The notes under the pieces are model-generated. The model saw only the letters and a program-made list of their open reading frames with translations. It was not told where the DNA came from and searched no databases. From Fusobacterium varium (GTDB lineage Bacteria > Fusobacteriota > Fusobacteriia > Fusobacteriales > Fusobacteriaceae): a DNA stretch of 64,000 nt. The position numbers and the translations under genes were made by a program. The DNA is taken from contig AP017968.1 of the NCBI GenBank assembly GCA_002356455.1, forward strand, positions 3,224,001 through 3,288,000, written 5' to 3'. Of this stretch, positions 19,933-30,587 are shown one piece after another; the first letter of the stretch is position 1; each line of letters begins with the position of its first letter.

Positions 19933-21703
19933 GGGGCTGTTGCAAATTTAAAACAGCCCAATTATCAAAAAAGCTGACTTGAAGTTTTCTTCTTGTCAGC
20001 TTTTTCTTTTTAAATAAAAAAAGGTATAAAATACTAAAAATTTTTTCAAATTTCTAATATAATATACCTATGCAAAAACCAACTAATAATAACATTTTTT
20101 TTCAATTAAATCAACCTAAACTTTTTAACTTTTTACAATATGAAATTTCTGATAATGATCCTGTAAGAAAACTTAGCTCAATATTGGAGGGATTAGATTT
20201 TAGTAGTTTAATGCAAGTATTTTCTTACAAAACAAAGGTACATCCTATCAGAATGTTTTCTATCATTGTTTATGCCTATTCGCGCAATTTAACTTCTACT
20301 AGAGATATAGAAATGGCTTGCCATGAAAATATTAAATTTAGGTTTCTTTTACAAGATTCTAAAATTCCTGATCACTCTACTATTTCTAGATTCTTAGTAA
20401 AAACTGAAGATATTCTTCCAGATCTATTTGAACAATTCGTTGAAAAAATTTTTGAAATGGAAAATATTTCCACTGAAACAATATATATTGATGGCACTAA
20501 AATTGAAGCATATGCTAATAAATATTCATTTGTTTGGAAAAAATCTATTGAGAAATACAGAGATAGATTAGATGAAAAAATTCTTGAACTAATTTCAAAT
20601 TTTAATGATGATTTCAACTTACAATATGACAACTTCCTTGAAATATATTCATATCTTTCTAATTTGAATTTTCAAATAGTCAAAGGTAGAGGAAAGAGAA
20701 AATCTAAAGAGCAAAAGTATTTAGAATTATGCGCAGAATACTTAGAAAAGTATCAAAAATATTCTAATCATTTTAAAAATCTTAATGGTAGAAATAGCTA
20801 TTCAAAAACTGATATAGATGCTACTTTTATGAGAATGAAAGATGACCATATGAGAAATGGTCAATTAAAACCTGGATATAATCTACAAATAGGAGTGATT
20901 AGTGAATATATTTCTTCATATGAAATTTTTTCTAACCCTTCTGATTCTAAAACTTTGATTCCATTTTTAGAGAAAATTTCATCTCAAAATTTAGAAATTA
21001 AAAATATTGTAGCTGATGCAGGATATGAAAGTATTTCAAATTATGAATATTTGGAAAAAATGGACTATACTTCATACATAAAACCAATATATTTTGAAAA
21101 ATCTAAAATCAGAAAGTTTAAAAATGATTTAAACAGAGTAGAAAATTTAATATATAATCATTCTGAAAATAAGCTATTTAGAAAAGATGGATTAGAATTA
21201 GAATTTCTATACTCTAACAAAAATAATACAGTTCAATATTTTTGGAATCCTGAAACTAACAAAAAAATTAAGTACAATGCGAGATTTAGAATTTTATCAA
21301 ATAAATCAAAAGAGAATGTATCAAGCAATTATGGAAAACAATTAAGAATGAACAGAAGTATTCAAGTAGAAGGTGCTTTTGCAGTTTTGAAAGAAGATAT
21401 GAAATTGCGAAAATTAAAAGTTCGAAGTAAAAAAAGTGTTTTAAGAGAAATATGTTTGTTTTGTATCGCTTACAACTTCAACAGATATCTAAGCAGAAAT
21501 ATAAATAATCGCTTAGGAACAACACTTCACTCATTAAAAGTAGCTTAGATAAATAAAAAATCATCTACTTCTTTTTTTGATACTTAAAAATAAATATAAA
21601 AATATAAATTAGCAGAAATCTATAAAATAGATTTCTATTTTTTTATAAAAAATAAGAGAAGCTGCACAAATTAGTTTATCAATCACTAATTTGCAACAGC
21701 CCC
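19933..21703 (+). mobile_element. IS1182-family insertion sequence, copy A
   Basis: 1,771-bp element with terminal inverted repeats GGGGCTGTTGCAAATT / AATTTGCAACAGCCCC. The left end also carries an internal hairpin (AAAGCTGAC...GTCAGCTTT plus T-run) that can block readthrough into the transposase gene. Copy B (28817-30587) has exactly the same length in the opposite orientation. No direct target duplication is apparent. It is inserted 39 bases beyond the nusB stop. Confidence 0.92.
20070..21548 (+). CDS. IS1182-family DDE transposase (copy A)
   Basis: Intact 492-residue transposase. An N-terminal IS5/IS1182-type domain (DPVRKLSSILEGLDF, IVYAYSRNLTSTRDIE, DHSTISRF) is followed by the DDE core: Asp in YIDGTKIEAYANKY, Asp in VADAGYESISNYE and Glu in RSIQVEGAFAVLKED. 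A C-terminal basic region closes it. There is no Shine-Dalgarno sequence. A TATAAT at 20058-20063 would place the transcript start at or next to the ATG, hinting at a leaderless message. It differs from copy B at four residues. Confidence 0.95.
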   Translation: MQKPTNNNIFFQLNQPKLFNFLQYEISDNDPVRKLSSILEGLDFSSLMQVFSYKTKVHPIRMFSIIVYAYSRNLTSTRDIEMACHENIKFRFLLQDSKIPDHSTISRFLVKTEDILPDLFEQFVEKIFEMENISTETIYIDGTKIEAYANKYSFVWKKSIEKYRDRLDEKILELISNFNDDFNLQYDNFLEIYSYLSNLNFQIVKGRGKRKSKEQKYLELCAEYLEKYQKYSNHFKNLNGRNSYSKTDIDATFMRMKDDHMRNGQLKPGYNLQIGVISEYISSYEIFSNPSDSKTLIPFLEKISSQNLEIKNIVADAGYESISNYEYLEKMDYTSYIKPIYFEKSKIRKFKNDLNRVENLIYNHSENKLFRKDGLELEFLYSNKNNTVQYFWNPETNKKIKYNARFRILSNKSKENVSSNYGKQLRMNRSIQVEGAFAVLKEDMKLRKLKVRSKKSVLREICLFCIAYNFNRYLSRNINNRLGTTLHSLKVA

Positions 21704-21742: not shown

Positions 21743-22141
21743 TTAATTATTTACTATTTTTGCTAAAACTCCATTTATAAACTCAGATGTCTTTTCATCT
21801 CCATATATCTTAGCAAGTTCTACTGCTTCATTTATGACTATTTCATATGGAGTATCTTCACACAAGATTTCATATACAGAAATTTTTAAAAGAGACTTTT
21901 CTACATTTCCAATTCTTTCAAAGCTCCATCCTGTTATTTTTTCTTCTATTATTTTTAAAATCTTGTCATTATTTTCAGCTATTCCATTCATATATTTTTT
22001 TATAAAAGCTATTTCATTTTCATTTTTAAGAATATCATCTCTTTTTAAATAGCTTTCTAATATATCATTAGTATTTTCTTCTTTTATTTCTCCTTCAAAT
22101 ACTAATTTAAATAACTCTTCCCTTGCTAATCTTCTACTCAT
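21743..22141 (-). CDS. nusB: transcription antitermination factor NusB
   Basis: All-helical RNA-binding protein that with NusE/S10 binds boxA in rRNA leaders to prevent premature termination. Its 132 residues show the family start SRRLAREELFKLVFEGE, the central FIKKYMNGIAEN, and the signature LLKISVYEIL..DTPYEIVINEAVELAKIYGDEKTSEFINGVLAKI. AAGGAAAG precedes the ATG. It is the last gene of the dnaE-to-nusB cluster and follows the DUF2273 gene by 12 bases. IS1182 copy A lies just past its stop and probably disturbs its terminator. Confidence 0.95.
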   Translation of the reverse strand: MSRRLAREELFKLVFEGEIKEENTNDILESYLKRDDILKNENEIAFIKKYMNGIAENNDKILKIIEEKITGWSFERIGNVEKSLLKISVYEILCEDTPYEIVINEAVELAKIYGDEKTSEFINGVLAKIVNN

Positions 22142-22153
22142 TAACTTTCCTTT

Positions 22154-22378
22154 CTAATCTTCTTTTATTTTCTCTAATATAAATTTTTTAATTCTTTTTA
22201 TAAATGTTATATCTCCAGCCTTATAACCTACAATACTTAAAACTACTATAAAAACTGTTTTAGGCAGACCATATTCTACAAGAAGAACTCCTAAAACAAA
22301 TCCTATAAAGCATCCTAAATATTTTCTCCAGTTATTTACAAGGGATACCATCACTTTTTCAAGCATCTCAGCTAACAT
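22154..22378 (-). CDS. DUF2273 family small membrane protein
   Basis: 74-residue protein with two hydrophobic helices separated by a short turn (KYLGCFIGFVLGVLLVEYGLPKTVFIVVLSIVGYKAGD), matching DUF2273 proteins found beside amaP and Asp23 genes in Firmicutes and Fusobacteria. It is thought to be a membrane partner in the Asp23/AmaP complex; that role is inferred from the neighbourhood. It starts 12 bases after the amaP stop. Confidence 0.82.
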   Translation of the reverse strand: MLAEMLEKVMVSLVNNWRKYLGCFIGFVLGVLLVEYGLPKTVFIVVLSIVGYKAGDITFIKRIKKFILEKIKED

Positions 22379-22390
22379 ATATGATCACCT

Positions 22391-22909
22391 CTATTCTTCT
22401 GAAGTATTTGAAGATTTTATTGATAACTTAGAAATCTGTACTTCAACAGTATCAACATCTAATCCCATTTTATCAGATAATCTGTTCTTTATTCCATCTT
22501 GAATAGAAGCAGTCTTCTCTGCAATATTTCCATCTGTAAGCATATCAAGTTTTATTTTTACAAAGAATTTTTTTCCTTTTTTTCCTGTAAAAACTTTTAT
22601 TCCTTCTACATCTTTATCTCTAGAAAGCATTTCTTTTACAAAATTAGTAACAGAAGCTGCTGATATAGTAACTTTTCCATTTTCTGTTTTTATTTCATAA
22701 TCACCTGTTTTTTCAAACATAGAGAAAAATTTTAAAATACACAATAAAAAATATGCCACACATATGATAACTATCGCAACATTAGTTTTTGTTGAATCTA
22801 ATGGATTAAATTTTACAATAAAATCCGGCATTACAATACATACTATTCCAGTAATTGATAGTATAAATATTCCTACCCATCCTAGAAAAAATAGAAATTT
22901 ATTAGTCAT
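22391..22909 (-). CDS. amaP: alkaline shock response membrane-anchor protein (AmaP-like)
   Basis: Two N-terminal membrane helices (residues 4-30 and 43-63) are followed by a cytoplasmic Asp23-like domain with KTENGKVTISAASVTNFVKEML and the GIKVFTGKKGKKFFVKIKLDM strand. In Staphylococcus AmaP anchors Asp23 at the membrane. At 172 residues it has the usual size. It lies between the Asp23-family gene and the DUF2273 gene, the standard order, and an intercistronic hairpin precedes it. Confidence 0.82.
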   Translation of the reverse strand: MTNKFLFFLGWVGIFILSITGIVCIVMPDFIVKFNPLDSTKTNVAIVIICVAYFLLCILKFFSMFEKTGDYEIKTENGKVTISAASVTNFVKEMLSRDKDVEGIKVFTGKKGKKFFVKIKLDMLTDGNIAEKTASIQDGIKNRLSDKMGLDVDTVEVQISKLSIKSSNTSEE

Positions 22910-22934: not shown

Positions 22935-22957
22935 TAGAGGCGCTTTGAGACGCCTCT
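22935..22957 (-). terminator. intercistronic hairpin between Asp23 and amaP genes
   Basis: AGAGGCG pairs with CGCCTCT around an 8-base loop. On the minus strand only a broken T-rich tract follows, so it may be a partial terminator or an mRNA-stabilising structure that raises Asp23 expression above amaP. Confidence 0.55.
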
Positions 22958-22962
22958 TTATA

Positions 22963-23343
22963 TTATAATCCTTCTTCTGTCTCTTCCTCTTCTTCAGAAG
23001 CTTCCTCTGTTCTGATTTTTACATCTTGAACATATACATTTACTTCAACAACTTTTAGTCCACTCAATTCAGATACTGCTTTCAATACAGATTTTTGAAC
23101 TTCATGAGCTACTTCTGAAATTGGATATCCAAATTCTACGATTACAAATACTTCAATGCTGCACTCTTTTTCTCCGACTTCTACTTTAACTCCATTAGTT
23201 GGTCTTTTCTTTCCTAGCATTTTGCTAACTTCATCTACTACTCCACCAGCAAGTTTATAAATACCTTCTACATCCCCTGCGGCTTTCGCAGCTATTGTTT
23301 TCACTACATCATCAGCTATTCTTATATTTCCTAATTCATTCAT
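22963..23343 (-). CDS. Asp23/Gls24 family envelope stress protein
   Basis: Cytoplasmic Asp23-type protein (126 residues): NIRIADDVVKTIAAKAAGDVEGIYKLAGGVVDEVS, then VEVGEKECSIEVFVIVEFGYPISEVAHEVQKSV and the terminal strand VVEVNVYVQDVKI, ending in a Glu-rich tail. The start is taken at the ATG at 23343. The upstream in-frame ATG at 23358 overlaps the Shine-Dalgarno sequence GGAGGTG that serves this one. It sits between accC and amaP, an order conserved in Gram-positives. Expected to be recruited to the membrane by the AmaP-like protein. Confidence 0.9.
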   Translation of the reverse strand: MNELGNIRIADDVVKTIAAKAAGDVEGIYKLAGGVVDEVSKMLGKKRPTNGVKVEVGEKECSIEVFVIVEFGYPISEVAHEVQKSVLKAVSELSGLKVVEVNVYVQDVKIRTEEASEEEEETEEGL

Positions 23344-23405
23344 TGAAAACACCTCCATGTATTATGTAACACTATTATATCTAATTTTGTTGAAAAAAAC
23401 TACAT

Positions 23406-24758
23406 TTAATTATTTTTTTTAGAAAAATTTTCTTCTATAAAGTTAGTTGAAGTCTTTCCTTCAAGATATAATTCATTATTAAAAACTTCTAAGTGAAATG
23501 GAATAGTAGTATCTATTCCTTCAATAATATATTCACTTAATGCTCTCTTCATTTTTGCAATAGCTTCTTCTCTGTTTATTCCAAAAGCTATCAATTTTCC
23601 TATCATTGAGTCATAATAAGGACTTATTTCATATCCTTGATATGAATGGGAATCCACCCTTATCCCATTTCCTCCTGGAACAATATATTTTGTAAGTACG
23701 CCTGGTGATGGCAGAAAATCATTTTCAGGGTCTTCTGCATTAATTCTACATTCAATAGCATGTCCGTATAGAATAACATCATCTTGTGCTATATTTAATT
23801 TTTCTCCTGCTGCCACTTTTATTTGAAGTTTTATGATATCAACACCTGTTACCATTTCAGTTACAGTATGCTCTACCTGTACTCTTGTATTCATTTCCAT
23901 AAAAAAGAAATCATTATTTTTATCCACAAGAAACTCTAAAGTTCCTGCTGAGTCATAATTTATTGCTTTAGCAAGAGTTACAGCTGCTTCACCCATGGCT
24001 TTTCTGATATTGTAAGGTAATGAAAATGATGGAGCTTCTTCTATAAGCTTTTGATGTCTTCTCTGAATAGAGCAATCTCTCTCTCCTAAATAAATAACAT
24101 TTCCATGTTGATCTCCCATTATCTGAATTTCTATATGCCTAGGATCTTCCACAAATTTTTCTATATATACATCTGGATTTCCAAATGCTGACTCTGCCTC
24201 ATTTTGAGCTGCTACTATATTTGCAGCTAATTCTTCATCATTTCTGGCAATTCTCATACCTTTTCCTCCACCACCAGCAGTGGCTTTGATCATTACAGGA
24301 TATGATATTCTCTCATTTACTTCTTTTTTAGCTTCTGCAATACTTTTAATTATTCCAGTTCCATTAGTTACTGGAACTCCATTTTCTATGGCAGTTGCTC
24401 TAGCAGTTGCCTTATCTCCCATTTTTATTATACATTCAGGTCTAGGTCCAATAAACGCTATATTATGCATTTCACAAATCTTTCCAAATCTTGCATTTTC
24501 AGAAAGAAACCCATAACCTGGATGGATAGCATCTGCACCTGTAATCTCTGCTGCTGCTATTATATTAGGTATCTTCAGATATGACTCTGAACTTGAGATT
24601 CCTCCTATACATACAGCCTCATCTGCAAGAGTTACATGAAGACTTTCTTTATCAGCCTCTGAATATACAGCAACTGTTTTTATTCCTAGTTCCTTTGCTG
24701 CTCTTATGATTCTGACTGCTATCTCTCCTCTATTAGCGATAAGTATTTTTTTAAACAT
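23406..24758 (-). CDS. accC: biotin carboxylase
   Basis: Biotin carboxylase subunit of acetyl-CoA carboxylase: ATP- and bicarbonate-dependent carboxylation of biotin on a carrier protein. The ATP-grasp enzyme is complete: [16 protein letters not shown] start, MGDKATAR, glycine loop [42 protein letters not shown] and catalytic [18 protein letters not shown]. The start is put at 24758 because AGGAGG lies 9 bases upstream; the longer ORF start at 24788 has none. It follows the AccB-like gene. The oddity is that this neighbour lacks the biotinyl lysine, so AccC must use another carrier for catalysis. Confidence 0.95.
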
Positions 24759-24797
24759 ATTTTCTTTCCTCCTGGTAATCCAAATCATTTCAGATTA

Positions 24798-25211
24798 TTA
24801 AATTTTGATCTTTAATAGTGGTCTTCCATAATCTACTGGATTACCATTTTCGATATATATTTCCTCTATAGTTCCAGAATAACTAGAAGTAATAGTAGTA
24901 TTTACTCCAACTGTTGAAATATATCCAATTTCCTGTCCAGCTTTTATTTTCTGCCCCACTTCTATTACAGGCTCTCCATTCTTTTTCATATAAAAATATC
25001 TTCCTATATGATCAGACAGCACCTCTTTAAAATTTACTGCTTCTTTATTTTCTATAACTTTAGTTTCTTTTACTATTTCTTTTTTTACTGCTGCAGTAAG
25101 GGGTCCTTTAATTGTAACCTTAAAATTAGAATCCTCATATGATATCTCTGTAAGTTTCTGCTCATGCAGAACTTTCATTAATTCTTCAACTGCCTTTATA
25201 TCTCCCCTCAT
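24798..25211 (-). CDS. AccB/BCCP-like protein lacking the biotin-acceptor lysine
   Basis: The N-terminal part (KAVEELMKVLHEQKLTEISYEDSNFKVTIKG) and C-terminal barrel (GQKIKAGQEIGYI...SGTIEEIYIENGNPVDYGRPLLKIKI) match biotin carboxyl carrier proteins. Aligned without gaps to a standard BCCP, the hairpin E-A-M-K-M is S-T-V-G-V here: the modified lysine is glycine. No other lysine occurs in that turn. The DNA codes this plainly, in a good frame with AAGGAGG before the ATG, so it is not a reading error that I can see. It lies 39 bases before accC. It may regulate or scaffold the carboxylase like plant BADC proteins; this is inference. The true carrier must be elsewhere. Confidence 0.88.
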   Translation of the reverse strand: MRGDIKAVEELMKVLHEQKLTEISYEDSNFKVTIKGPLTAAVKKEIVKETKVIENKEAVNFKEVLSDHIGRYFYMKKNGEPVIEVGQKIKAGQEIGYISTVGVNTTITSSYSGTIEEIYIENGNPVDYGRPLLKIKI

Positions 25212-25277
25212 AAAAACCTCCTTATTTTTTTATATTCTACCACTACAAGACTTTTATTTCAACAAAAATTACATATG

Positions 25278-28200
25278 TTATTTTATAGTAAGCTTATCAA
25301 TTCCGATCAAATCTATGATTTCATCTATAAACATTCTTGATGGAGCTATCTTATATTTAGTTGCTCTTATCTCTTTAACTGTTTTTGTTTTTATTGCAAA
25401 ATTTAGCTTAGTATCTCCAGGATAAGAAAGAATTATTTTTTTCAATCTGCTGAATTTATCTTTATCTTCTTCTTTTAAAAGTATATAAGCAGTAAATTTC
25501 CTATCTCTCACTATATCATCTAAAAATTTTATATTTTTTACAATTAGTTTTTTAGTTTCTGCTCCTTTGAAATAATCTGCCTGTACAGTTCCTTCAATAT
25601 ACACAATTTTTCCTTCCATAAATATATGGGCATTTTCTATATAATCTCTAGGAAAAATCACACAATTTATTTTATCGAAATAATCCTCTAATTCAAATAA
25701 ACACATAATTTGTCCAGTTTTTTTTGTAACTATTTTTTTTATCTCTCTAAGTATACCACATGTTCTGAAAATCTGCACACTTTTTTCCTCTTTTAGTTCT
25801 GCTATCTTAGAAAGTCTGTATACTTCTATCAGTCTTCTATAATTATCCAATGGATGTGCACTGAAATAAAATCCAAGATATTCTTTTTCTCTTGCTAAAA
25901 GTTCTTCTAAGGAATATTCTGGTACTTGTGGAAGAGTAAAAACGCCAAGAGAAGATTTAGCTTCTCCAAAAAGATTCATTTGTTGTATCTCATCTTCTTT
26001 TATTTTCCTTGTTGCATAGTCTAATATTTTATCTACTGACTCAAATTTCTGTCTTCTATTTCCTGGAAGACCATCTAATGCTCCAGCCAGTATGAGAGAC
26101 TCCAAGGCTTTTTTATTTAAACCATGCTTTCTTGTACGAACTACAAAATCCTCAAAATTTTTATATTCTCCATTTTCATTATATTCTTCCAGTATTTTTC
26201 CTGATACTCCCTCTCCCACATTTTTTATAGCTGCAAGAGAAAAAATTATTCCTTCTTTATCTACTATGAACTTTGGACTTGCTCTATTTATATCTGGTAA
26301 ATGTAACTTCATATTATGTGCTTTTGCATCTTCCATATAAAAAGCTATGTCTTCCACATGACTCATTTCAGAAGTCATAAGAGAAGCATAGTAATGTTTC
26401 ATATAATAAGCTTTAAAGTATGCTGTCCAATAAGCTATAAGAGCATATGCTGCTGAATGAGACTTATTAAATCCATATCCAGCAAACTTATCTATCAACT
26501 CAAACATCTCTATTGCTTTTTCTTTTGTATAACCATTTGCTATTGATCTTTCTACAAATTTTTCCCTGTTTTCCTCCATAATCTGGATATTTTTTTTCCC
26601 CATAGCTCTTCTTAACAAATCTGCTTCTCCGAGAGAATAATTTGCCATTATATTAGCTATTTTCATTACCTGCTCTTGGTAAAGTATTACTCCATAAGTT
26701 TCTTTTAATGTGGCTTCAAGAGATGAATGAGGATATTTTATCTCTGATATCCCATTTTTTCCATTTATAAAATCATCTACCATACCTGAACCTAAAGGTC
26801 CTGGTCTATATAAAGCCAAAAGAGCTATTATATCTTCAAATCTATCTGGTTTTAACTTCAGCAATATTTTTCTTATTCCTTGAGATTCTAACTGAAAAAC
26901 TCCAGAAGTATCTCCCCTGGAAAGCATTTCATATACTTTTTTAGAATTAAGAGGTACATCTGATAATGTTATATCTTCTCCTAAGTCTTCTTTTATATAA
27001 TCTATTGTTCTCTGTAAATTAGTCAGATTTCTAAGTCCAAGAAAATCCATCTTCAGTAATCCTAGATCTTCTAATTCCTTCATCTGATACTGTGTAGACA
27101 CAACTTTATTTTTGTTATCACTATACAATGGAACTGTATCTGTCAAAGGATCTTTTGTAATAACTATTCCAGCAGCATGAACAGAAGCATGTCTTACTTT
27201 ATTTTCCAATCTTGCAGATATATCTATTACTTTTTGTATCTCAGTATCATTGAGATACATATTTTTAAATTCTTCTACATTATTAAGAGTCTGTTGGATA
27301 GTTGCATTAAATGGAACTAACTTGGCAACACTGTCTATCTTAGAAAGTGGTATATCCATAACTCTTCCTACATCTCTTATTGCTGCTCTTGCTTTCATTG
27401 TTCCAAAAGTTATAATTTGAGCTACTTTATCTTCCCCATATTTTCTAATAACATATTCTATTAGTTCTTGTCTTCTTTCTTGACAAATATCTATATCTAT
27501 ATCTGGCATAGATATTCTTTCAGGATTTAAAAATCTTTCAAAGATAAGATTGTAATTCAATGGATCAAGTTCTGTTATTCCAAGAGCATATGCTACAAGA
27601 CTTCCAGCAGCTGATCCCCTTCCAGGTCCTATTGGAATCCTGTTCCTTTTTGCATAATCTATAAAATCCCATACTACTACAAAATATGCAGCATATCCCA
27701 TTTTTTCTATAACTGAAAGTTCATATTCTACTCTTTCTAAAACTGATATTGTCAAACCATGAGGGTATCTTTTAGAAAGACCAAAATATACAAGTTTTTT
27801 CAAAAATTCCTCTATTGTTTTTACACAAGATGGTATTTCATAATTTGGAAACTTAAACTTTCCAAACTCTATATCTACATTACATCTTTCAGCTATTTCA
27901 ACAGTATTATTTACTGCTTCCAGATATCTTGCTCCTAGTCCATCTATTATCTGCTCCCTGCTTTTAAGAAAAAGTTCATCTGTTTCTATCCTCATTCTTT
28001 TTTCATCAGACACTTTTGCCCCTGTTTGAACACATATAAGAATATCTTGAAGAGTATGTTCTCCTTCATTTACATAGTGAGTATCATTTGTTGCTATCAT
28101 TTTCAAATGATGTTTTTGAGCTAAATCATAAAGTTTTTCGTTAAGGGCTGTTTGACCTTTTACTCCATTTGCCTGCACTTCTATATAGAAATTATCTTTA

Positions 28201-28694
28201 CCAAAAATATCTATATACTCATTTACTGTTTCATCCACTTTTTCTTCACTCTCATTATCCAGAATTCGTCGTGGAATTTCTCCCTGCATACATGCTGAAA
28301 GAGCTATTATTCCTTCATTATGAGTCTTTAAAAATTCTTTATCAATTCTTGGTTTATAATAGAATCCCTTTATATAACTTTCAGAACTTATTTTAAGAAG
28401 ATTTTGATATCCTTTATTGTTTTCAGCAAGAAGTACCAGATGAAATATTCTTCCCTCTTTCTCAAGCATTGAAAATTCAGATACATATGCTTCCAATCCA
28501 ATTACTGGTTTTATTCCTTTTTTTATTGCCTTCTTATAAAATTCCAGTACCCCAAAAAGATTTCCATGATCTGTTATAGCAATTGCCTGCATTCCAAGTG
28601 CTTTCACTCTATCTAAATAATCATCTATTTTTCCTACTCCATCAAGGAGGCTGTACTCAGTATGAAGATGAAGATGAACAAAGTTTTTTATCAT
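25278..28694 (-). CDS. dnaE: DNA polymerase III alpha subunit
   Basis: Replicative polymerase of the C family. Its 1,138 residues comprise an N-terminal PHP domain (HLHLHTEYSLLDG, ITDHGNLFG), a palm with the catalytic aspartates in MPDIDIDICQERR, the GPGRGSAAGSLVAY loop, the thumb/fingers region (GGVFQLESQGIR type, YQEQVMKIA, GYGFNKSHSAAYA) and a C-terminal OB fold. AGGAGGAGA precedes the ATG. It heads the dnaE-accB-accC-Asp23-amaP-DUF2273-nusB series on the minus strand. IS1182 copy B is inserted 122 bases upstream of the start but leaves a plausible extended -10 promoter intact. Confidence 0.96.
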   Translation of the reverse strand: MIKNFVHLHLHTEYSLLDGVGKIDDYLDRVKALGMQAIAITDHGNLFGVLEFYKKAIKKGIKPVIGLEAYVSEFSMLEKEGRIFHLVLLAENNKGYQNLLKISSESYIKGFYYKPRIDKEFLKTHNEGIIALSACMQGEIPRRILDNESEEKVDETVNEYIDIFGKDNFYIEVQANGVKGQTALNEKLYDLAQKHHLKMIATNDTHYVNEGEHTLQDILICVQTGAKVSDEKRMRIETDELFLKSREQIIDGLGARYLEAVNNTVEIAERCNVDIEFGKFKFPNYEIPSCVKTIEEFLKKLVYFGLSKRYPHGLTISVLERVEYELSVIEKMGYAAYFVVVWDFIDYAKRNRIPIGPGRGSAAGSLVAYALGITELDPLNYNLIFERFLNPERISMPDIDIDICQERRQELIEYVIRKYGEDKVAQIITFGTMKARAAIRDVGRVMDIPLSKIDSVAKLVPFNATIQQTLNNVEEFKNMYLNDTEIQKVIDISARLENKVRHASVHAAGIVITKDPLTDTVPLYSDNKNKVVSTQYQMKELEDLGLLKMDFLGLRNLTNLQRTIDYIKEDLGEDITLSDVPLNSKKVYEMLSRGDTSGVFQLESQGIRKILLKLKPDRFEDIIALLALYRPGPLGSGMVDDFINGKNGISEIKYPHSSLEATLKETYGVILYQEQVMKIANIMANYSLGEADLLRRAMGKKNIQIMEENREKFVERSIANGYTKEKAIEMFELIDKFAGYGFNKSHSAAYALIAYWTAYFKAYYMKHYYASLMTSEMSHVEDIAFYMEDAKAHNMKLHLPDINRASPKFIVDKEGIIFSLAAIKNVGEGVSGKILEEYNENGEYKNFEDFVVRTRKHGLNKKALESLILAGALDGLPGNRRQKFESVDKILDYATRKIKEDEIQQMNLFGEAKSSLGVFTLPQVPEYSLEELLAREKEYLGFYFSAHPLDNYRRLIEVYRLSKIAELKEEKSVQIFRTCGILREIKKIVTKKTGQIMCLFELEDYFDKINCVIFPRDYIENAHIFMEGKIVYIEGTVQADYFKGAETKKLIVKNIKFLDDIVRDRKFTAYILLKEEDKDKFSRLKKIILSYPGDTKLNFAIKTKTVKEIRATKYKIAPSRMFIDEIIDLIGIDKLTIK

Positions 28695-28816: not shown

Positions 28817-30587
28817 GGGGCTGTTGCAAATTAGTGATTGATAAACTAATTTGTGCAGCCTCTCTTATTTTACATAAAAAAATAGAAATCTATTTTATAG
28901 ATTTCTGCTAATTTATATTTTTATATTTATTTTTAAGTATCAAAAAAAGAAGTAGATGATTTTTTATTTATCTAAGCTACTTTTAATGAGTGAAGTGTTG
29001 TTCCTAAGCGATTATTTATATTTCTGCTTAGATATCTGTTGAAGTTGTAAGCGATACAAAACAAACATATTTCTCTTAAAACACTTTTTTTACTTCGAAC
29101 TTTTAATTTTCGCAATTTCATATCTTCTTTCAAAACTGCAAAAGCACCTTCTACTTGAATACTTCTGTTCATTCTTAATTGTTTTCCATAATTGCTTGAT
29201 ACATTCTCTTTTGATTTATTTGATAAAATTCTAAATCTCGCATTGTACTTAATTTTTTTGTTAGTTTCAGGATTCCAAAAATATTGAACTGTATTATTTT
29301 TGTTAGAGTATAGAAATTCTAATTCTAATCCATCTTTTCTAAATAGCTTATTTTCAGAATTATTATATATTAAATTTTCTACTCTGTTTAAATCATTTTT
29401 AAACTTTCTGATTTTAGATTTTTCAAAATATATTGGTTTTATGTATGAAGTATAGTCCATTTTTTCCAAATATTCATAATTTGAAATACTTTCATATCCT
29501 GCATCAGCTACAATATTTTTAATTTCTAAATTTTGAGATGAAATTTTCTCTAAAAATGGAATCAAAGTTTTAGAATCAGAAGGGTTAGAAAAAATTTCAT
29601 ATGAAGAAATATATTCACTAATCACTCCTATTTGTAGATTATATCCAGGTTTTAATTGACCATTTCTCATATGGTCATCTTTCATTCTCATAAAAGTAGC
29701 ATCTATATCAGTTTTTGAATAGCTATTTCTACCATTAAGATTTTTAAAATGATTAGAATATTTTTGATACTTTTCTAAGTATTCTGCGCATAATTCTAAA
29801 TACTTTTGCTCTTTAGATTTTCTCTTTCCTCTACCTTTGACTATTTGAAAATTCAAATTAGAAAGATATGAATATATTTCAAGGAAGTTGTCATATTGTA
29901 AGTTGAAATCATCATTAAAATTTGAAATTAATTCAAGAATTTTTTCATCTAATCTAGTTCTATATTTCTCAATAGATTTTTTCCAAACAAATGTATATTT
30001 ATTAGCATATGCTTCAATTTTAGTGCCATCAATATATATTGTTTCAGTGGAAATATTTTCCATTTCAAAAATTTTTTCAACGAATTGTTCAAATAGATCT
30101 GGAAGAATATCTTCAGTTTTTACTAAGAATCTAGAAATAGTAGAGTGATCAGGAATTTTAGAATCTTGTAAAAGAAACCTAAATTTAATATTTTCATGGC
30201 AAGCCATTTCTATATCTCTAGTAGAAGTTAAATTGCGCGAATAGGCATAAACAATGATAGAAAACATTCTGATAGGATGTACCTTTGTTTTGTAAGAAAA
30301 TACTTGCATTAAACTACTAAAATCTAATCCCTCCAATATTGAGCTAAGTTTTCTTACAGGATCATTATCAGAAATTTCATATTGTAAAAAGTTAAAAAGT
30401 TTAGGTTGATTTAATTGAAAAAAAATGTTATTATTAATTGGTTTTTGCATAGGTATATTATATTAGAAATTTGAAAAAATTTTTAGTATTTTATACCTTT
30501 TTTTATTTTAAAAGAAAAAGCTGACAGGAAGAAAACTTCAAGTCAGCTTTTTGGGTAATTGGGCTATTTTGAATTTGCAACAGCCTC
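28817..30587 (-). mobile_element. IS1182-family insertion sequence, copy B
   Basis: 1,771 bp, inverted relative to copy A. The end near dnaE carries the perfect GGGGCTGTTGCAAATT form; the far end reads GAGGCTGTTGCAAATT on the element strand, as in the MITE. Flanks TAAAATGAAACTAAAGAG and CTCTTTTCTTTCCCCATTTTA are roughly complementary, so the element probably jumped into the loop of the terminator after the HAD gene, which ends 18 bases away. Confidence 0.92.
28972..30450 (-). CDS. IS1182-family DDE transposase (copy B)
   Basis: Intact 492-residue transposase with the same DDE residues as copy A (DGTKIEA, ADAGY, RSIQVEGAF). Differences from copy A are Thr to Ile near residue 4, Ser to Thr and Asp to Thr around residues 150-165, and His to Asn near residue 362. 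The same TATAAT just before the ATG and the same lack of a Shine-Dalgarno sequence are seen. Confidence 0.95.
   Translation of the reverse strand: MQKPINNNIFFQLNQPKLFNFLQYEISDNDPVRKLSSILEGLDFSSLMQVFSYKTKVHPIRMFSIIVYAYSRNLTSTRDIEMACHENIKFRFLLQDSKIPDHSTISRFLVKTEDILPDLFEQFVEKIFEMENISTETIYIDGTKIEAYANKYTFVWKKSIEKYRTRLDEKILELISNFNDDFNLQYDNFLEIYSYLSNLNFQIVKGRGKRKSKEQKYLELCAEYLEKYQKYSNHFKNLNGRNSYSKTDIDATFMRMKDDHMRNGQLKPGYNLQIGVISEYISSYEIFSNPSDSKTLIPFLEKISSQNLEIKNIVADAGYESISNYEYLEKMDYTSYIKPIYFEKSKIRKFKNDLNRVENLIYNNSENKLFRKDGLELEFLYSNKNNTVQYFWNPETNKKIKYNARFRILSNKSKENVSSNYGKQLRMNRSIQVEGAFAVLKEDMKLRKLKVRSKKSVLREICLFCIAYNFNRYLSRNINNRLGTTLHSLKVA

Follow-up and report, generated by a model that had tools for sequence, protein, structure and literature searches.

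Background

Acetyl-CoA carboxylase, which carries out the committed step of fatty-acid synthesis, is a drug target; its bacterial form is usually presented as an assembly of four subunits. Here we describe an accB-like gene of Fusobacterium varium whose product is related to the biotin carboxyl carrier protein (BCCP, or AccB) and lacks the biotinyl lysine. The gene lies at 24798-25211 on the reverse strand of the window, by which we mean the whole 64,000-nucleotide (nt) stretch that was analysed (GenBank assembly GCA_002356455.1, contig AP017968.1, positions 3,224,001 to 3,288,000); features given by window coordinates are on this strand unless stated otherwise.

The closest described counterpart is found in plants. 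The biotin attachment domain-containing protein BADC lacks the AMKL motif of BCCP and helps to assemble the complex of biotin carboxylase (BC) with BCCP (PMC11926652). It was first viewed as an inhibitor, and in vivo work has been read as inhibition, as reported in PMC11926652. Like Arabidopsis BADC1-3, the lysine-less AccB is a BCCP relative without the biotinylation motif that exists beside a true BCCP and a biotin carboxylase, a likeness drawn by analogy. Unlike the BADC genes, which are nuclear and belong to plants, its gene is bacterial, adjoins accC and is fixed in its phylum. The initial annotation had already drawn this comparison, and as an analogy it is apt.

Bacterial systems offer further comparisons. 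The actinobacterial acyl-CoA carboxylases contain AccE, or epsilon, a small subunit without catalytic function that promotes the assembly and activity of the holoenzyme (PMC7835884). A small non-catalytic subunit is also the role proposed here for the lysine-less AccB; AccE/epsilon, in contrast, binds the carboxyltransferase subunit and is not described as BCCP-derived (PMC7835884). The accBC-yqhY operon of Bacillus subtilis shares the order accB-accC-asp23 with the fusobacterial locus, but its accB encodes the biotinylated subunit. According to PMC5437119, YqhY of B. subtilis, an Asp23-family protein, is genetically tied to acetyl-CoA carboxylase. The same paper notes the accBC-yqhY order for Fusobacteria, with which the gene order at our locus agrees; its passages on this subject that were consulted make no mention of a lost lysine there.

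The lysine-less AccB

The gene encodes 137 residues and is preceded by an AAGGAGG ribosome-binding site (25217-25223). Its translation, which contains GQEIGYISTVGVNTTITSS, has the layout of a full-length AccB homologue, that is, an N-terminal helix and hairpin, a linker and a biotinyl-type barrel, and the Pfam domain Biotin_lipoyl is matched at residues 80-135 (E 3.5e-11). The initial annotation had read the hairpin turn as T-V-G-V in place of A-M-K-M, with no lysine, and this reading was verified: the turn lies at 24903-24914, Gly102 (codon 24906-24908) occupies the position of the biotinyl lysine, and the E-A-M-K-(L/M)-M-N motif is lost. The protein scores 56 bits against TIGR00531 (AccB), below the curated cut-off of 115.2, and, judged from its sequence, it falls outside AccB by the defining feature of that family, the biotinyl lysine. 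The AccB fold, comprising the N-terminal region and the biotinyl barrel, is present according to the profile alignment and the predicted model. An intact accC (23406-24758; TIGR00514, 713 bits) does follow directly, as had been claimed; it starts 39 nt after the end of the lysine-less gene, likely at the ATG at 24758 behind AGGAGG, and a longer open reading frame (ORF) begins at 24788.

The rest of the carboxylase is encoded in the same genome. Exactly two Biotin_lipoyl proteins are present, the lysine-less AccB and a true AccB with EAMKLMN; the latter, encoded at C1:2543583-2544035, distant from the lysine-less gene, scores 132.5 bits against TIGR00531, above the cut-off. The search that the initial annotation had proposed for a second BCCP and for accA and accD thus found all three. 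There is a single biotin carboxylase, namely the accC adjoining the lysine-less gene, one accD-accA pair (C1:805619-807236) and one biotin-ligase homologue. As true AccB, accC, accD-accA and the biotin-ligase homologue are all present, no catalytic component is missing even if the lysine-less protein is not counted. The latter is a motif-less BCCP paralogue coexisting with a true BCCP and BC, as is characteristic of the BADC type.

Conservation across the phylum

Ninety-eight genomes of the phylum were searched for orthologous accC, lysine-less AccB and true AccB. An orthologous accC was found in 81, and lysine-less AccB in every one of them (81/81). Of the 17 genomes without this accC, 16 lack lysine-less AccB too, and the majority of these seem to be small genomes from which the entire carboxylase has disappeared; in the other (G025) the lysine-less gene is present but is cut off by the end of its contig. 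Two genomes, G051 and G060, have neither accC nor lysine-less AccB, yet keep a true AccB, which is probably an assembly gap. True AccB with its lysine was found in 79 of the 81 accC genomes, the two exceptions being 82% complete. All three genes seem to have been lost jointly in several lineages (G016-G018, G064, G082-G083, G091-G096 and G001), which may therefore rely on fatty acids from their surroundings.

In all 80 loci that yielded both genes, lysine-less accB and accC are neighbours on one strand, separated by a median of 29 nt and by at most 100 nt in 77 of the 80; the usual order in the phylum is dnaE - lysine-less accB - accC - asp23. The motif column holds glycine in all 81 readable lysine-less orthologues and lysine in all 47 true AccB fetched, and the flanking E, A, M, M and N are likewise gone from the lysine-less family. 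Glycine is thus fixed in the fusobacteria, far beyond chance. Plant BADC also has glycine at this turn, a likeness not used as evidence here. The protein is kept across five putative families, and the ratio of nonsynonymous to synonymous substitution rates (dN/dS) of close pairs is 0.08-0.21, no higher than the 0.20-0.28 of true AccB; the gene is under purifying selection. An A-M-K-M in a relative or decay of the gene, either of which would contradict the initial annotation, was looked for and not found, except for one copy with a one-base change in a poly-A run. In this copy, from a genome of the same genus (G028:C1, L057 about 2125-2140), the run is one base shorter and the frame is shifted in the linker.

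In a tree of AccB proteins from which the motif columns were left out, the lysine-less proteins form one clan (Shimodaira-Hasegawa-like approximate likelihood ratio test, SH-aLRT, 99), and most true AccB fall into a separate group (98). As each forms its own supported group, both are old in the phylum. A joint clade of lysine-less AccB with the unlinked true AccB was not rejected (approximately unbiased test, p-AU 0.65), and origin from the old operon accB or from a duplicate of the unlinked AccB are both compatible with the tree. Four genomes of genus g21 (L063, L064, L067 and L069) carry an extra true AccB that groups with a Lachnospiraceae AccB, as well as an additional accC with about 54% identity to that of the window; together these are probably a second carboxylase gained by transfer.

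Predicted structure

The solved structure that the family profile matched best is full-length E. coli AccB (4hr7_B, E 7.7e-18), in an alignment that spans the N-terminal region as well as the barrel. An AlphaFold model built from 51 orthologues (mean predicted local distance difference test score, pLDDT, 78.5; barrel 89-92) has an N-terminal helix at residues 3-17 and a short hairpin at 22-35 (region 3-35, 25107-25205, which also aligns with E. coli AccB), then a disordered linker and the biotinyl/lipoyl-type barrel (residues 61-137, 24801-25031). Gly102 is placed in the turn between strands 94-100 and 103-108. The top Foldseek matches of the model are E. coli BCCP structures, with a target-normalised template modelling (TM) score of 0.92 and a root-mean-square deviation of 1.1 for 4hr7_G.

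The initial annotation had described the barrel as aligning with BCCP without gaps. The alignment holds, but it is not fully free of gaps: the 'thumb' segment has 15 residues in the F. varium protein versus 16 in true AccB. This length is 16 in all 47 true AccB, whereas the lysine-less copies have 15 residues in 43 of 82 and 9-12 in 39 of 82; one family has 9 in each of its 24 members that were read. The protein shares with bacterial AccB (TIGR00531; E. coli 4hr7) the N-terminal region, linker, barrel and position before accC, and differs from it in the missing lysine and EAMKM motif, a score below the family cut-off and the shortened thumb.

Proposed function and alternatives

Our favoured explanation, which we regard as probable on the strength of the sequence comparisons and the plant analogy, is that the lysine-less AccB is an obligate non-catalytic, BADC-like carboxylase subunit. 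It would bind AccC and/or the true AccB through its retained N-terminal region and barrel, occupy some of the places of AccB within the AccC-AccB subcomplex, and help to assemble or hold that subcomplex. The ratio of lysine-less to true AccB could then adjust the amount of biotin that arrives at AccC. The same scheme has been proposed for plant BADC.

Several other explanations have to be weighed against this. That the missing lysine is a sequencing or assembly artefact, or that a relocated lysine nearby still takes biotin, is extremely improbable: the same state recurs in 81 genomes, the flanking motif residues are gone as well, and no lysine is present at the F. varium turn. An artefact was rejected on the glycine in 81/81 readable copies. 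The gene could also be imagined as a decaying relic of the operon accB, left behind after a second accB took over, as it occupies the customary position of accB, the lysine is carried by the second copy and one genome is frameshifted; with retention in all 81 accC genomes, which span five putative families, an invariant glycine and dN/dS of 0.08-0.21, decay was rejected and a relic is very improbable. A carboxylase lacking its true AccB was rejected too, since this protein is encoded in the F. varium genome and in 79/81 accC genomes. Because the glycine is fixed, true AccB is present and selection is purifying, the lysine-less gene represents neither an error nor decay nor a failing carboxylase.

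A functional protein could act in other ways. An adaptor tying AccC to the Asp23/AmaP membrane proteins, and thereby malonyl-CoA synthesis to the membrane, is suggested by the asp23, amaP and DUF2273 genes that follow accC in the window and by the genetic link of B. subtilis YqhY to acetyl-CoA carboxylase (PMC5437119). However, accBC-yqhY of Firmicutes has a normal AccB, so that the Asp23 link needs no lysine-less one, and the protein has no membrane feature; we consider such an adaptor improbable. A more serious contender, though still an unlikely one, is a protein that mainly inhibits, as a decoy that vies with true AccB for AccC and reduces flux at times of ample fatty-acid supply. An AccB fold without a biotin site, encoded in the same unit as accC, would suit this role, and results obtained in vivo with plant BADC were interpreted in this way (as reported in PMC11926652). 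A pure brake would, however, be expected to be lost occasionally and to be regulated separately, whereas this gene adjoins accC and is never lost while accC is kept. So strict a co-retention speaks for a permanent subunit rather than a brake that can be dispensed with, and, on the sequence evidence, an assembly or structural action is somewhat more likely than a mainly inhibitory one. The initial annotation stands in part: its factual core is confirmed, and the new form of control that it suggested is one candidate role; co-retention fits the structural subunit beside another BCCP, which it also named, at least as well as an inhibitor.

Some observations weigh against the assembly subunit. Co-retention could come from another essential role linked to AccC, and the BADC likeness is an analogy to a plant protein. 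The thumb cut to 9-12 residues in 39/82 copies means that contacts may differ across lineages. Further, the frameshift in G028 may be a sequencing error, a true loss or slippage.

Gene neighbourhood

Downstream of accC lie an Asp23-family gene at the yqhY position (22963-23358; PF03780) with a terminator-like hairpin 3' of it (22936-22957), amaP, encoding the membrane anchor of Asp23 (22391-22909; NF033218), a gene for a small DUF2273 membrane protein (22154-22378; Pfam) and nusB (21743-22141; NCBIfam). Upstream, dnaE (25278-28694) is the neighbour expected from the conserved order. The gap between it and the lysine-less gene holds a promoter-like TTGAAA-17-TAGAAT with TG before the -10 (25234-25262), which is a consensus match only; promoter-like sites are no more numerous than in shuffled sequences. 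The block from nusB to dnaE is bracketed by near-identical IS1182-family transposase genes in opposite orientation, at 20070-21548 on the forward and 28972-30450 on the reverse strand.

Occurrence outside the phylum

Lysine-less AccB was sought at loci with an accC motif from ten named phyla and through searches of Bacillota; none was found in this sample, which is of limited sensitivity and contains some overlapping loci, and all 111 AccB-like ORFs have the lysine. A profile of one fusobacterial family scores the lysine-less proteins of other families at 73-121 bits, and true AccB of other phyla at up to 105; because these scores overlap, only fetched loci could be judged. Inspection of genomes with two AccB matches found none that was lysine-less. 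In five genomes of the cyanobacterial sample the AccB linked to accC reads E-T-I-K, with the lysine kept and A-M lost (L330, L332, L334, L336 and L338), and a canonical EAMKLMNE AccB is encoded elsewhere (L331, L333, L335, L337 and L339). This parallels the fusobacterial arrangement and is perhaps an earlier stage of it. Many clostridial genomes (L281-L292, L194 and L313) have an ORF of 600-660 residues with a C-terminal AccB domain, a fusion of AccB to another protein; several of these ORFs lie immediately upstream of accC.

Rhizobial plasmids carry operons of the order BCCP(K) - accC - lysine-less BCCP-like - pxpB - pxpC-like - pxpA. The lysine-less gene was located in ten of these loci (L347 4912-5325; L353 5813-6277; L355 3941-4384; L356 3941-4384; L357 3489-3923; L358 3495-3962; L359 3498-3923; L360 3501-3944; L361 3501-3947; L362 3501-3932). 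In an ungapped alignment eight of them have P in the lysine column and two have H, the residue before it being Gly, so that the turn reads V-G-P or V-G-H. Relatives were found by tblastn in 183 plasmid records, part of which were inspected, and are annotated as 'biotin/lipoyl-containing protein', 'acetyl-CoA carboxylase' or hypothetical. Like the fusobacterial protein, the rhizobial one resembles BCCP, lacks the lysine and occurs together with a true BCCP and accC; unlike it, it has P or H in the lysine column and belongs to a 5-oxoprolinase-type carboxylase operon. Profile comparison gives the rhizobial proteins no closer tie to the fusobacterial family than to true BCCP, and hence they look like a separate origin. 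No earlier report of a lysine-less BCCP in bacteria, and no essentiality data for fusobacteria, were found in the searchable literature.

Significance

Taken more broadly, the fusobacterial acetyl-CoA carboxylase may have a fifth, obligate non-catalytic subunit derived from a biotin-less AccB throughout the phylum, with the lysine-less twin having arisen more than once, in Fusobacteriota, in rhizobial Pxp-type operons and in plants; we regard this wider proposal as evenly balanced. If it is true, annotations of these genes as biotin carboxyl carrier protein need correction, and fusobacteria would offer a small bacterial system for the disputed role of BADC as glue or brake. The repeated origin of lysine-less twins would make BADC one case of a general design, and a fifth, inactive AccB twin kept phylum-wide would change how the fusobacterial carboxylase is drawn.
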